Assembly (NCBI GenBank): GCA_030700255.1
Contig: JAUYJN010000042.1
Coordinates: forward strand, 1 to 64,000
Direction of reading: 5' to 3'
DNA from: Candidatus Peregrinibacteria bacterium
GTDB taxonomy: Bacteria; Patescibacteriota; Gracilibacteria; UBA1369; JABINC01
Length of the DNA: 64,000 nt
Every line of letters begins with the position of its first letter. The first letter of the stretch is position 1. This document shows, piece by piece, positions 51,278 to 56,227 of this stretch. Under the pieces are notes generated by a model. It saw nothing but the letters and a program-made list of their open reading frames with translations. It was not told the origin of the DNA and did not search any database. The translations under genes were made by a program, and so were the position numbers.

Positions 51278-51706
51278 TCATCTGTCGACAGGTGTCTTTT
51301 TTAGTTCCAAATCAGCAAACTTTCTAGTAACAAAATTTGGGATAACACTATAAAAATGTTTTTTACCCATACCAACCTGCCTAATAACAACTTTCAACTT
51401 TTTACCTCTTATTATCGCAATAAAACCCCAAAACAAAACGACTTTATCATTATGCCTAATAAGAGTTTGTCTTGCTTCGTATTCTTGTAAAGTACCAGAA
51501 TAACGCAAAATTTCTTCAACAGAACGCAAATACCTAAAGCGAACCATTTGCTGATCTTTATCACGTTGAATATGCCCACGCTTATAAAGAATGTGATACC
51601 AAGACTGTAACGGGAAACTTATCTTATCTTTTAAATAAGGACAATACACACTCTTAAGTGCAGAATAATAATTCCTAGCCTCCTGTTTTCTAGTCTCATA
51701 TTTCAT
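51278..51706 (-). CDS. Small basic protein, possible BECR-fold nuclease
   Basis: A 142-residue, strongly basic protein. Residues about 35-125 run 'SWYHILYKRGHIQR', 'RFRYLRSVEEILRYSG', 'VLFWGFIAIIRGKKLKVVIRQVGMGKKHFYSVIPNF': a helix with His, then a beta-meander ending in a conserved-looking 'KHFYSVIP'. This recalls barnase/EndoU/colicin-E5/RelE-like (BECR) nucleases of phage and mobile-element type, where the last strand carries such a motif. Similarity is by eye only. It lies alone between tatD and the aro leader, without an antitoxin-like partner. Confidence 0.45.
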   Translation of the reverse strand: MKYETRKQEARNYYSALKSVYCPYLKDKISFPLQSWYHILYKRGHIQRDKDQQMVRFRYLRSVEEILRYSGTLQEYEARQTLIRHNDKVVLFWGFIAIIRGKKLKVVIRQVGMGKKHFYSVIPNFVTRKFADLELKKTPVDR

Positions 51707-51863
51707 ATATTTTAGATTAAAATAAAAAAAACACTACCACACAAAATTAAAAATTCTCTAAAAAATGGAAGAGGTTATTTTTAATGTTTTTTTATTATTC
51801 ATTTAAAATTACTTCCAATATGAAAATAATTGGTATAGAATATTAGAGTAATCATCATCTTAT

Positions 51864-51974
51864 ATGGAACAAAAGAACTTTCTACAAGCTGTGCAAAATT
51901 TCTTCCGATTTTTCTTTGGGTTCTTTTATTATGCACCAGTAAAAGTGAGGAAGGATGATCGCTATCGCAGATAA
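51864..51974 (+). CDS. Phe/Tyr-rich attenuator leader peptide
   Basis: A 36-codon open frame from ATG to TAA. Residues 13-23 read FFRFFFGFFYY: seven Phe and two Tyr codons in eleven (51900-51932). Further aromatic residues are F6 and Y34. No protein function is expected. The peptide resembles the pheA and pheST leader peptides of enteric bacteria in concentrating Phe codons just before an attenuator. The Phe/Tyr run ends 12 bases before the first antiterminator arm, so a ribosome stalled on it would leave that arm free. There is no clear Shine-Dalgarno, as is usual in this genome. Confidence 0.88.
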   Translation: MEQKNFLQAVQNFFRFFFGFFYYAPVKVRKDDRYRR

Positions 51975-52012
51975 AGCGACTTAAGACAAAAGACTTAAAC
52001 ACACTTCCTCAC
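51945..52012 (+). promoter_or_regulatory. Antiterminator hairpin of the aro attenuator
   Basis: GTGAGGAAG (51945-51953) is the perfect complement of CTTCCTCAC (52004-52012). Forming this 9-bp stem takes up CTTCC, which is the left arm of the terminator, so the two structures exclude each other. Confidence 0.85.
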
Positions 52013-52031
52013 AAAAAAGGAAGTTTTTTTT
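52003..52031 (+). terminator. Attenuator terminator upstream of the aro operon
   Basis: ACTTCC (52003-52008), 10-base loop, GGAAGT (52019-52024), followed by a run of T to 52031. A 6-bp stem is short but has an eight-base T run. It shares its left arm with the antiterminator. Confidence 0.82.
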
Positions 52032-52062
52032 ATTTAATAAATAATTCATAACCAAAAAAACT

Positions 52063-52152
52063 ATGAAAAAGAATTTAATCTCGCGCATCGAATCACTGAC
52101 TGTTAAGATACCGCAGGTAAGAAAAAACAGACATTTACCCTATCTTGCCTAA
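52063..52152 (+). CDS. Possible small open frame before DAHP synthase
   Basis: A 29-codon frame, basic (MKKNLISRIES at the start), lying between the attenuator terminator and the DAHP synthase ATG. No aromatic-codon run. It may be a second leader or simply chance. It ends 49 bp before the synthase start. Confidence 0.25.
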   Translation: MKKNLISRIESLTVKIPQVRKNRHLPYLA

Positions 52153-52201
52153 AAAACTGACCCAGCATACAAATAAACCAAAACTTTTAACTACAACAAA
52201 T

Positions 52202-53260
52202 ATGATTATCGTAATGAAAGGCAACGCTCCTCAGAGTCAATCCGACTACATAATGGAAAAAATATTAGAGGTCGGTCTAAAACCGGTACCACTATACGGG
52301 ACTGAACGAACTGTAATAGCAATTATCGGAGATGAAAGAATTTTAGATATCAATCACATAAAAGCTTTCCCGGGGGTTAGCAATGTAATGGCGGTTTTAC
52401 AACCATTCAAATTAGCAAGTATAGAAACGAAAAGCGAACCTACTATTGTAAAAGTAGGGAAAGTGGAAATAGGTGGAGGCACTATCGCTATGATAGCCGG
52501 CCCATGTGCGGTTGAATCGTTTGAGCAGGTGGATGCAGCCGCAAAAGCCGTTAAGTCCGCGGGTGCGAATATACTACGCGGAGGAGCGTTCAAACCTCGT
52601 ACTTCTCCATACGGATTCCAAGGGCTCGGCGAGGAAGGTTTAAAAATTTTAAGAGAAATAGGGGATAAATACGATATGCCGGTAATCACTGAAGTACTTG
52701 ATCCGCGAGACGTCCCTATGGTTTGTAAATACGCAGATATTTTGCAAATAGGTACGCGAAATATGCAAAACTTCCGCTTACTCGAAGAGGTTGGTAAATC
52801 ACAGAAGCCGGTTATGCTAAAGCGCGGTATGTCAGCAACAGTAAAAGAATGGATCCTAGCCGCAGAGTACATTTTGCAAGAAGGAAATCCGAATGTAATT
52901 CTATGTGAAAGAGGGATTCGTACATTTGAAGATTCAACTCGCAATACAATCGCTATAGATGCGGTGCCTCTTGTAAAAGAATTAACACATCTGCCTGTGA
53001 TAGTAGATCCAAGTCATGGGACAGGTAGGCCGTCACTCATCCCTGCGATGAGTAAGGCGGCGATAGCGGCTGGTGCAGACGGACTCATAATAGATGTTCA
53101 CTGTAACCCGGAAACTGCTATGTGCGACGGAGCACAAGCCTTGAGGCCGGAACAATTTGAAATAGTAATGGAAGGGCTCGCACCAATTGCCGTAGCTATA
53201 GGGAAACGCCTAGCAAACTCTGATATAAAATGTGAACTTAAATGCGTGCACAAAAAATAA
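52202..53260 (+). CDS. aroF: 3-deoxy-7-phosphoheptulonate (DAHP) synthase
   Basis: A 352-residue type I-beta DAHP synthase, first enzyme of the shikimate pathway, condensing phosphoenolpyruvate with erythrose 4-phosphate. An N-terminal ACT/ferredoxin-like regulatory domain (about 1-70, beginning MIIVMKGNAPQSQSDYI) precedes the barrel with 'IAGPCAVESFEQ', 'RGGAFKPRTSPYGFQG', 'LQIGTRNMQNF', 'LKRGM', 'CERGIRTFE' and 'VDPSHGTGR'. The regulatory domain is the type that gives feedback control by Tyr or Phe in Thermotoga. ATG at 52202 chosen; the frame is open upstream to a TTG at 52145, but those residues are not family-like. Expression is controlled by the upstream attenuator. Confidence 0.95.
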   Translation: MIIVMKGNAPQSQSDYIMEKILEVGLKPVPLYGTERTVIAIIGDERILDINHIKAFPGVSNVMAVLQPFKLASIETKSEPTIVKVGKVEIGGGTIAMIAGPCAVESFEQVDAAAKAVKSAGANILRGGAFKPRTSPYGFQGLGEEGLKILREIGDKYDMPVITEVLDPRDVPMVCKYADILQIGTRNMQNFRLLEEVGKSQKPVMLKRGMSATVKEWILAAEYILQEGNPNVILCERGIRTFEDSTRNTIAIDAVPLVKELTHLPVIVDPSHGTGRPSLIPAMSKAAIAAGADGLIIDVHCNPETAMCDGAQALRPEQFEIVMEGLAPIAVAIGKRLANSDIKCELKCVHKK

Positions 53261-53301: not shown

Positions 53302-54348
53302 ATGCCAACTATCACTCTCATACCGGAGGAAAATAAACGCAAAGATTACAAAATACGTATTGGCAAAGGCATAATTAAGCAAATCCCAAAGTATTTAAAA
53401 AAACTGCATTATTCAAAATATGTGATAGTTACAGACATGACCGTCCGTAAACTATATGGAATAAAGCTACAAAAAGCATTAATAGAAAATGATCTTGATG
53501 TAGAACTTCTATCGTTTTTATCTGGGGAGAAAAGTAAAAATCTCAAAACTATAGAAACATTACTCGATAAAATGCTTGGTCTTGGATGCGACAGAAATAC
53601 TTGCATACTTGCTCTCGGAGGTGGGGTCGTTGGCGACATCGCAGGATTCCTCGCTTCAACATTTATGCGTGGCATAAATTTCATACAAATACCAACTACA
53701 CTACTCTCAATGGCAGATTCATCGATAGGGGGTAAAACCGGTGTAAATACAAAATCAGGCAAAAACCTAATAGGTGCATTTCATCAACCGGTAACTGTTT
53801 TTGTTGATATAGAAACATTAAGCACTCTGCCGGAAAATGAGCTAAAAAATGGTTATGCAGAAATTATAAAAATGGCTACTATAAGGAACAAATCCCTATT
53901 TAAATTTTTAGAAAAAAATAATGACAAAATTCTGAAAAAAGACATGAGGAAGCTCAAAAAAACAATTGAATTATCCATAAGAATAAAAGCGGATATCGTC
54001 TCAAGGGACACTAAGGAGGCCGGGATAAGAATGATACTCAACTACGGACACACATATGGTCACGCAATCGAAAAAATAAGCAAATACAGTATCCTACATG
54101 GGTATGCTGTTTCTATCGGGATGTGCGGAATTAACTCAATTGCAGTTGAAAACAAATGGATGAAACAAAGTCATGCCGCGAGGATAGAGGCACTCCTAAC
54201 CAAAGCTGGGCTTCCAACAAAGCTACCAAAGAAAATTTCAGCAAGTTCATTAAATAAATGTATAAAATCAGATAAAAAACGAGTAAACGACATCCAAAGT
54301 TACGTAATAGTTCCAAAAATCGGCACTGCCGCAATAGTTGAAATGTAA
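53302..54348 (+). CDS. aroB: 3-dehydroquinate synthase
   Basis: A 348-residue NAD- and metal-dependent enzyme, second step of the shikimate pathway. Motifs: 'LALGGGVVGDIAGFLASTFMRGI' near 98, 'SSIGGKTGVNTKSGKNLIGAFHQP' near 138, 'GYAEIIKMA' near 185 and 'LNYGHTYGHAIEK' near 247 with the zinc histidines. Starts 41 bp after DAHP synthase and ends 8 bp before aroA. Confidence 0.96.
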   Translation: MPTITLIPEENKRKDYKIRIGKGIIKQIPKYLKKLHYSKYVIVTDMTVRKLYGIKLQKALIENDLDVELLSFLSGEKSKNLKTIETLLDKMLGLGCDRNTCILALGGGVVGDIAGFLASTFMRGINFIQIPTTLLSMADSSIGGKTGVNTKSGKNLIGAFHQPVTVFVDIETLSTLPENELKNGYAEIIKMATIRNKSLFKFLEKNNDKILKKDMRKLKKTIELSIRIKADIVSRDTKEAGIRMILNYGHTYGHAIEKISKYSILHGYAVSIGMCGINSIAVENKWMKQSHAARIEALLTKAGLPTKLPKKISASSLNKCIKSDKKRVNDIQSYVIVPKIGTAAIVEM

Positions 54349-54356
54349 AACAAACC

Positions 54357-55679
54357 ATGGAAAAACTTCAAATGCATCCCATCGACAAAAATAAGATCCC
54401 TAAACATTTTGAGATAGCCGTTCCAGGATCAAAAAGTTATGCGAACAGAGCTCTTCTTACAGCCGCTCTTGCCTGCGGCAAGAGCGTCCTAACAAACATG
54501 CTTATCAGCGATGACACAGAAGTTATGATACAAGCTCTAAAAGAACTTGGAATCAAAATAATTCAAAAAGGTACGACGATAACGGTACATGGAGGATGCG
54601 GGAAATTTAAAAAACCAAACGGTAAACTGTATTTCGAAAACGCAGGCACGGCAATACGTTTTATGGCAGCAGCACTAGCAATGCAAGATTTTGAATGTAT
54701 AATCACTGGAAATCCACGCATGAAAAATCGCCCAATCAAAGACCTCGTAAATGCCCTCCGGTCCGGCGGAGCTAAAATAGAATACCTAGGAACAGAAGAC
54801 TATCCACCACTTTTGATCAAAGGCGGATTTAAAGGCGGTAAAATCAAAGTACCGGGTGAAATCAGTTCACAATTTGTCTCAAGCCTACTGCTCATAAGTC
54901 CATACACAGAAAAGCTCACCGATGTCATGATAGAAGGTGTCCTAGCCTCAAAGCCATATGTCGATATGACACTCAAAGTCATGAAAGATTTCGGCGTCAG
55001 CCAAGGTAAACGCAATGGATATCAAAGATTTATCATAAACAACAAAGCAACTTACCATGGCACGAACTATGAAATAGAGGCTGACGCCTCTTCTGCCAGC
55101 TACTTTTTTGCACTAGCAGCTCTACACGGAACTGAAGTCACTGTAACCAATGCGAAATATAAATCCGCACAAGGTGACATAAAACTCGTAAACCTTCTCG
55201 AGAAATCAGGCTGCCAAATTAAAAAAGGAGAAACACAAGGTATAACTGTCAAAGGCCCGGAAAAACTAGATGATCTAAAATCCATAGGAGACATAAACAT
55301 GAATACTATGCCTGACGTTGCACTAACCATGGCAATAGTTGCCACATTCTCAAAAGGCCGTACTAGACTCAAAAACATCCCAAATTTACGTGTAAAAGAA
55401 TCTGATCGTATACTCGCTATGACGCAGGAATTGAACAAAGTTAACTGCAAAGCACGTCAAATGCTAGATGGAATAGAGGTGAAAGGTCATCCTCACAAAT
55501 ATCATGGAGCTGAAATAGAAACATACGATGATCACCGTATCGCAATGTGCTTCGGCATACTCGGAACAGTAGTCCCCGGAATAACAATTCTAAATCCGGA
55601 TTGCGTAAGCAAAACATATCCTGATTTCTGGAAAGATTTAGAAAAATTCAACGTCAAAACCGAACTTATAAAAGACTAA
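54357..55679 (+). CDS. aroA: 3-phosphoshikimate 1-carboxyvinyltransferase (EPSP synthase)
   Basis: A 440-residue two-domain enzyme joining shikimate 3-phosphate and phosphoenolpyruvate. 'VPGSKSYANRALLTAALACG' near 23 is the substrate-binding Lys-Ser stretch, 'FENAGTAIRFMAAAL' near 94 and 'GNPRMKNRPIKDLVNALRSGGAKI' near 120. The C-terminal half has 'LRVKESDRILAMTQEL' near 344 and 'YDDHRIAMCF' near 390. Normal length. 8 bp after aroB and 2 bp before aroK. Confidence 0.96.
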   Translation: MEKLQMHPIDKNKIPKHFEIAVPGSKSYANRALLTAALACGKSVLTNMLISDDTEVMIQALKELGIKIIQKGTTITVHGGCGKFKKPNGKLYFENAGTAIRFMAAALAMQDFECIITGNPRMKNRPIKDLVNALRSGGAKIEYLGTEDYPPLLIKGGFKGGKIKVPGEISSQFVSSLLLISPYTEKLTDVMIEGVLASKPYVDMTLKVMKDFGVSQGKRNGYQRFIINNKATYHGTNYEIEADASSASYFFALAALHGTEVTVTNAKYKSAQGDIKLVNLLEKSGCQIKKGETQGITVKGPEKLDDLKSIGDINMNTMPDVALTMAIVATFSKGRTRLKNIPNLRVKESDRILAMTQELNKVNCKARQMLDGIEVKGHPHKYHGAEIETYDDHRIAMCFGILGTVVPGITILNPDCVSKTYPDFWKDLEKFNVKTELIKD

Positions 55680-55681
55680 AA

Positions 55682-56227
55682 ATGAACATAGTTTTGATAG
55701 GAATGAGGGGGTCCGGTAAAACTGATATTGGGCAAAAAATCGCAGAGATTTTATCGTACAATTTTTTTGATCTAGATGGTGTGATAACCACAGCTTTGAA
55801 CAAAAATATTACTCAGATAGTAAAGGAGGAAGGCTGGCCCCACTTTCGCGAGCAAGAGGCCAAAATTTGCAAGTCGATTAGTCAAGAAAACAATGCGATA
55901 ATCTCAACTGGAGGCGGAATAATTCTAAATGAAAAAAATATCGAAAATTTAAAGAAGAATGGACTCATAATTTTACTCAACTGCGACGTTGATGTTCTAA
56001 AAAATAGACTCAAAAAAGATAAGAAAAACAATCAAGATCGACCTACATTAATCGACAAAAATCCGGAAGATGAAATAAATAAAATCTGGTTAGAAAGAAA
56101 GGAAAAATACTTCAATTCAGCCGATATTGTATTTGACGTATCAGGGGAATCATTGGATAGGCACGCTGACATACAAGCGAAAGCAGAGCGGATTATCGCT
56201 CTAGTAAAAGAGAAAATAGCAATCTGA
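55682..56227 (+). CDS. aroK: Shikimate kinase
   Basis: A 181-residue P-loop kinase phosphorylating shikimate. Walker A 'GMRGSGKTDIG' near 7, the shikimate-binding Asp in 'FFDLDGVI' near 32, the Arg of 'FREQEAKI' near 58, 'STGGGIIL' near 78 and the lid 'QDRPTLI' near 121. It ends in TGA and is the last gene of the aro operon. The steps catalysed by dehydroquinase, AroE and AroC are not encoded in the window. Confidence 0.93.
   Translation: MNIVLIGMRGSGKTDIGQKIAEILSYNFFDLDGVITTALNKNITQIVKEEGWPHFREQEAKICKSISQENNAIISTGGGIILNEKNIENLKKNGLIILLNCDVDVLKNRLKKDKKNNQDRPTLIDKNPEDEINKIWLERKEKYFNSADIVFDVSGESLDRHADIQAKAERIIALVKEKIAI

Follow-up and report, generated by a model that had tools for sequence, protein, structure and literature searches.

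A probable ribosome-mediated transcription attenuator with a Phe/Tyr codon run ahead of the aroF-aroB-aroA-aroK operon of a Peregrinibacteria bacterium

The window (the whole stretch of DNA that was analysed, 64,000 nucleotides) carries four genes of aromatic biosynthesis on its forward strand. Pfam matches bore out the order given in an earlier note on this DNA, in which the operon opens with DAHP synthase and continues with aroB, aroA and aroK:

52202 to 53260, + strand: aroF, DAHP synthase type I with an N-terminal ferredoxin-like domain (PF00793, E 1.2e-82; PF18152, E 3.9e-20)
53302 to 54348, + strand: aroB, 3-dehydroquinate synthase (PF01761, PF24621)
54357 to 55679, + strand: aroA, EPSP synthase (PF00275, E 1.4e-121)
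55682 to 56227, + strand: aroK, shikimate kinase (PF01202, E 6.8e-42)

The DAHP synthase most likely starts at ATG 52202 and not at TTG 52145, which opens the longest ORF, because the proteins of its relatives begin with MIIVM. The host genome (1.37 Mb; the genomes listed for its phylum span 0.6-2.0 Mb) lacks ribosomal protein L30 (PF00327), which was present in 13 of 14 control genomes; the small genome and the loss of L30 are consistent with a member of the CPR/Patescibacteria.

Upstream of aroF, the following elements were read from the sequence:

51836 to 51841, + strand: TAGAAT, a possible -10 element of a leader promoter (weak, no good -35)
51864 to 51974, + strand: leader peptide ORF MEQKNFLQAVQNFFRFFFGFFYYAPVKVRKDDRYRR, 36 codons
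51900 to 51932, + strand: regulatory codon run FFRFFFGFFYY, residues 13-23 (7 Phe and 2 Tyr in 11 codons)
51945 to 51953, + strand: region 2, antiterminator 5' arm GTGAGGAAG, 12 nt after the last Tyr codon
52003 to 52012, + strand: region 3 ACTTCCTCAC, terminator 5' arm and loop, also the partner of region 2
52018 to 52024, + strand: region 4, terminator 3' arm AGGAAGT
52025 to 52034, + strand: T run TTTTTTTATT of the intrinsic terminator

The frame and its aromatic run agreed base for base with the earlier description, as did the 9-bp arm: GTGAGGAAG (51945-51953) is perfectly complementary to CTTCCTCAC (52004-52012), and the duplex of the two, at -18.2 kcal/mol, is stronger than those formed with 40 of 41 partners swapped in. 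The intrinsic terminator that shares the CTTCC arm was likewise recovered (ACTTCCTCACAAAAAAGGAAGT at 52003-52024, followed by TTTTTTTATT); it is the sole terminator-like site in 51600-52400, where 0.2 were expected in shuffles. The two ORFs next upstream of the leader, tatD and a 142-aa ORF, are both on the minus strand, so the terminator (52003-52034) serves no upstream gene. The 142-aa ORF (51278-51706) lies between tatD and the leader region and has no Pfam match.

The density of aromatic codons at the window (7 of 8) was not reached in any of 5000 dinucleotide shuffles of the 400 nt upstream, and the leader RNA folds with a z-score of -3.3 (1 of 200 shuffles was equally good). The leader ORF has no Shine-Dalgarno sequence, like nearly all genes of the same genome: the motif was found at 4 of 63 gene starts (window and trp locus L111), and initiation regions are A+T-rich. 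Its absence is therefore no argument against the leader. Around the leader, promoter-like sites were no commoner than in shuffles, and TAGAAT is put forward from its letters as a candidate -10 element. In the window leader, 42 nt separate the last aromatic codon from the stop codon, a distance of 3-27 nt in nearly all other loci, and the ORF continues beyond region 2. A protector hairpin (UUCUUCC 51899-51905 with GGAAGGA 51948-51954) could be drawn in the window and was rejected, being no better than chance (p 0.38).

DAHP synthase homologues were gathered in the order, class and phylum, and the DNA upstream of each was read. Within the same order, 34 loci carry a short ORF with a dense Phe/Tyr (often also Trp) run upstream of DAHP synthase, a count that leaves aside L035, L046 and L063, whose runs have no arms. 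Typical order-mate runs are QFWAYFYF (L036), WGFEYFYFPSP (L023), FNWAFFYF (L039) and DFYFYF (L021, L029); runs also occur in other orders of the class (for example NNWYFFGFYFETR in L082 and NYFFYGFYFKVR in L093), and outside the class the same build was found at 8 of 12 DAHP synthase loci (for example YFGFYFYW in L116, NFWFFYF in L122 and SWYFFFF in L127). Runs with at least 6 aromatic codons in 8 were present at 38 of 81 class loci, compared with none of the 81 reverse strands and 0.57% of shuffles. The leader peptides vary in length and at nearly all residues except the aromatic run; since only the run is kept, they fit a leader peptide and not a functional small protein.

The earlier note had proposed to compare leaders among relatives. 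The Phe/Tyr run and the covariation of the stems held across the order and phylum, and the sole same-genus genome (L016) had lost the leader: in L016, where the tatD-aroF gap is about 130 nt, leader, terminator and any counterpart of the 51278-51706 ORF are all absent. Conservation among close relatives, as the note had asked for, is thus not borne out by this one genome, and the case for an attenuator rests on the wider order and phylum for this reason. Sensing of Phe and Tyr, as first proposed, agrees with the window run, which contains these two residues as its only aromatic ones. Many relatives also hold Trp in their runs, and the family therefore appears to sense up to three aromatic amino acids. 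The genome of the window has a separate Trp leader and a separate DAHP synthase in its trp operon. A rule by which a second, trp-linked DAHP synthase goes with an aro leader free of Trp was discarded, as G272, G075 and G305 have two copies and keep Trp.

At the 42 loci with both a leader and a terminator, the segment after the run paired with the 5' half of its own terminator at a mean of -15.6 kcal/mol, compared with -8.1 kcal/mol when region 3 was swapped in from other families (Mann-Whitney p 5e-23, a value that assumes independent loci though the genomes are related; swapping between families lessens the effect of kinship and does not remove it). Against shuffled versions of region 3, pairing of regions 2 and 3 reached p ≤ 0.05 in 38 of the 42 loci, and a median of 9 nt separates the last aromatic codon from the first 2:3 pair. 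The words of regions 2, 3 and 4 change together: AGGAAG/CTTCCT/AGGAAG in the window, GAGG/CCTC/GAGG in most of the order, AGCGG/CCGCT/AGCGG in family f22 and GGAAAGTTT/AAACTTTCT/GGAAAGTTT in L019, with 32 distinct words among 40 loci. Of all the evidence, this three-way covariation weighs most. A protector hairpin between regions 1 and 2 was supported at p ≤ 0.05 in just 5 of 43 loci, and the family departs in this from the classical four-region trpL layout.

Folding was modelled with the nucleotides under the ribosome kept unpaired, ignoring kinetics and steric effects. On these terms, 38 of 43 loci preferred the antiterminator when the ribosome stood early in the run, six codons short of the last aromatic one, and 22 of 43 did so when it stood on that last codon; once it had reached the stop codon, 42 of 43 preferred the terminator. 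An early stall shifted the predicted fold in the expected sense in 40 of 43. For the window, the modelled probability of the antiterminator was 0.76-1.00 for every A-site codon from 13 to 24, and that of the terminator was 0.93-0.98 for A-site codons 25-35. The predicted switch falls between codons 24 and 25 and sits just behind the last regulatory codon, because the terminator takes over from codon 25 and the last Tyr is codon 23. The window was the sole modelled locus at which the terminator did not prevail at the stop codon once pairing was permitted between the RNA on either side of the ribosome: at the stop, the antiterminator has a probability of 1.00 if such pairing is allowed and the terminator 0.98 if it is not. 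Over the eleven codons that precede the stop the terminator is favoured, and the window device should therefore work on the assumption that the polymerase gets past the terminator within that time.

Operons besides aro were covered by a targeted search (trpE). The trp operon of the same genome (L111, minus strand) reads trpR, leader, trpE, a fused trpG/D/C/F-like ORF, a second DAHP synthase, trpB and trpA, where trpGDCF, trpB and trpA were named by reading and not by family search. Two of its features bear on the window:

L111 (C38 of the same genome), 9700 to 9580, - strand: Trp (WWW) leader MGKRINQNNVWWWTRLYMQTRR and terminator, between trpR and trpE
L111, 4178 to 5176, - strand: second DAHP synthase, preceding trpB within the trp operon, with 49% identity to the aro copy

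Trp-run leaders also precede trpE in L137, L139, L142, L143, L144, L146, L153 and L154, and the energies of 2:3 pairing in these leaders range from -13.5 to -18.3 kcal/mol. Counting L138, W-run leaders stand ahead of trpE in nine order-mates in all; the L138 run forms the C-terminal end of the TrpR protein itself (...NQVIAWWQPSTIWQMWS) and is accompanied by an arm that matches and by a weak terminator. The codons read are thus Phe/Tyr(/Trp) ahead of the aro genes and Trp ahead of trpE, which bears out the attenuation model and which A+T-richness is unable to explain. Upstream of trpR in L143, L146 and L139, near its promoter, palindromic sequences of the GTACTA...TAGTAC type were observed; they resemble the E. 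coli TrpR operator and by that analogy suggest autoregulation by TrpR.

The conserved ORF, the covariation, the computed switch and the Trp leader of the same genome together support the initial reading as a Phe/Tyr attenuator, and the region is very probably a ribosome-mediated transcription attenuator of the aroF-aroB-aroA-aroK operon. We infer that the leader ORF is translated in the cell, that ribosomes stall on it and that read-through changes as a result, in the following way. The polymerase would transcribe the leader while a ribosome translates the 36-codon peptide behind it. When charged tRNA-Phe or tRNA-Tyr is scarce, the ribosome would stall on codons 13-23 and leave region 2 (51945-51953), just ahead, free to pair with region 3 (52004-52012); this pairing would disrupt the terminator and the operon would be transcribed. 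With ample charged tRNAs, the ribosome would advance two codons beyond the last Tyr and cover region 2, region 3 would then pair with region 4 (52018-52024), and transcription would end at the T run near 52031. In the simplest form of such a device, the ribosome would mask the antiterminator arm directly as it moves on, and this form is favoured here because no family-wide sign of a protector hairpin was found. It follows from direct masking that the operon would be on when the leader is untranslated, unlike E. coli trpL.

In E. coli trpL, a 1:2 hairpin forms and the stop codon lies before region 2. The present family is arranged otherwise: its stop codon or its continuing ORF reaches or passes region 2, which is probably masked by the ribosome directly. 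The attenuators of E. coli trpL-trpEDCBA and of Actinobacterial trp operons (PMC1262725) resemble the window in their regulatory codon run and in the competition of the post-run segment for the 5' arm of the terminator, and the trp operon of the window genome itself has a WWW leader. The Proteobacterial systems pheL-pheA, pheST and Rfam RF01859 likewise join a Phe-codon leader to an alternative antiterminator and terminator. They differ in that pheL-pheA and pheST control a branch enzyme or a synthetase, whereas the window leader precedes the common first step, and in that the window has no supported protector hairpin. The Phe_leader model (RF01859) was the best Rfam bacterial-element match by E-value at the leader, below threshold: it matched on the same strand and span over the whole model with 21.2 bits (E 0.64; gathering cut-off 55 bits). 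The ilvB and ilvGMEDA leaders sense several end products of the shared branched-chain pathway with one leader; the F/Y/W runs of the window relatives appear multi-amino-acid in the same manner, although the sequences are unrelated.

For DAHP synthase itself, the primary paper on the C. glutamicum aroR leader and aroF attenuator is reportedly that of Neshat et al. 2014. In C. glutamicum, the aroR leader places Phe-Tyr-Phe codons before the DAHP synthase gene aroF, whose transcription rises as ribosomes stall on the Phe/Tyr codons under Phe limitation (PMC11802643, PMC4046766). The earlier note had called the use of a Phe codon run for the DAHP synthase operon distinctive; given this precedent, it is not unique. 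The aroR leader has three aromatic residues and belongs to an unrelated phylum, compared with nine in eleven in the window and the addition of Trp in many window relatives; the likeness is likely one of convergence. Leader-peptide systems were known only in Proteobacteria and Actinobacteria when a 2010 survey added the Firmicutes (PMC2965389). Literature searches, in which subscription papers mostly lay outside the scope, returned nothing relevant on attenuation or leader peptides in CPR, Patescibacteria or Peregrinibacteria, in agreement with the opinion already voiced that none had been described in CPR-type bacteria. The kind of device is thus familiar, with one earlier case at a DAHP synthase gene; what appears new is its occurrence across CPR-like bacteria.

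Three other explanations were weighed. It is scarcely credible that the A+T-richness of the region alone produced a Phe-rich short ORF (TTT/TTC) next to an unrelated, simple terminator. The region is indeed A+T-rich, and runs with 5 of 8 aromatic codons arise in 4.5% of shuffles; however, the shuffles of the window (0/5000) and the reverse strands at ≥6/8 (0/81) gave nothing comparable, the segment after the run covaries with the terminator, no plus-strand gene lies upstream for that terminator to end, and the trp operon has Trp (TGG, not A+T-rich) in place of Phe. As far as the loci were read correctly, this explanation may be regarded as already refuted. It is also very improbable, if slightly less so, that the terminator belongs to another RNA sensor (a T-box or metabolite riboswitch) or to a protein-binding attenuator, with an incidental ORF beside it. 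A terminator and an antiterminator are common to all such devices, but the T-box and riboswitch models of Rfam gave no match up to E 10 in 51600-52400, and conservation across families falls on the codons and on how far they lie from region 2 rather than on an aptamer, while the arm sequences vary freely.

A decaying relic, in which the attenuator family is real and the window copy has ceased to switch because translation now ends about 20 nt downstream of the antiterminator arm, is unlikely, though the least improbable of the three. The loss of the element from the sister genome L016, the outlying stop at +42 nt and the preference for the antiterminator at the stop codon in the unrestricted-pairing model point in that direction. 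Against decay, the aromatic run (9/11 codons), the perfect 9-bp arm and the terminator with its T run are all intact, the computed switch across codons 13-35 is clear, and the terminator wins at the stop too (0.98) if RNA cannot pair around the ribosome. Moreover, GTG-AGG in frame with a stop further on recurs in three other loci (L044, L050, L059).

Beyond this locus, we think it somewhat more probable than otherwise that leader-peptide attenuation is an old and general system of the CPR/Patescibacteria that still make aromatic amino acids: one Phe/Tyr/Trp sensor on the common pathway and a Trp sensor on the trp operon, with direct masking and no protector hairpin, and with the TrpR tail of L138 serving as the leader in at least one relative. 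If so, one ORF of L138 would encode both a repressor and an attenuator leader. The usual picture of most CPR bacteria is one of reduced cells that depend on a host and regulate little. A conserved attenuator suggests that some CPR lineages keep the shikimate and tryptophan pathways and tune them to tRNA charging, and that transcription and translation are coupled closely enough in such lineages for this use. As the leader codons would name the amino acid that a lineage watches, amino-acid need could be predicted from sequence.

One further feature lies in the interval between the terminator and aroF:

52061 to 52150, + strand: second short ORF MKKNLISRIESLTVKIPQVRKNRHLPYLA, with counterparts in most order-mates and in the sister genome

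Counterparts were seen at the same place in L016 (near 1464), L020, L021, L029, L036, L038, L041, L048, L050, L053, L055, L058 and L060, and the ORF thus persists in the sister genome L016 despite the lost leader. Its start often follows TTAACCnAAAAAAnATG, and its end carries a conserved [YCWF][LAS]Y[RQ]-like motif (RYLYRR, SCLYRR, WAYRYKG, TYSYQN); it may be a second control element, one that acts on translation. A general UAACC initiation motif was considered, because TTAACCnAAAAAAnATG precedes the second ORF and a similar start precedes a transporter gene (L002), and was rejected: gene starts in the window and in L111 showed no enrichment for it. Aromatic-rich short ORFs about 100-250 nt upstream of DAHP synthase were also noticed in unrelated phyla, namely NSFCFTFFFSFFGV in L007 and L008 (Brachyspira) and SRFYYYAYLYPGEG, with a strong terminator, in L003 (Syntrophobacteraceae).
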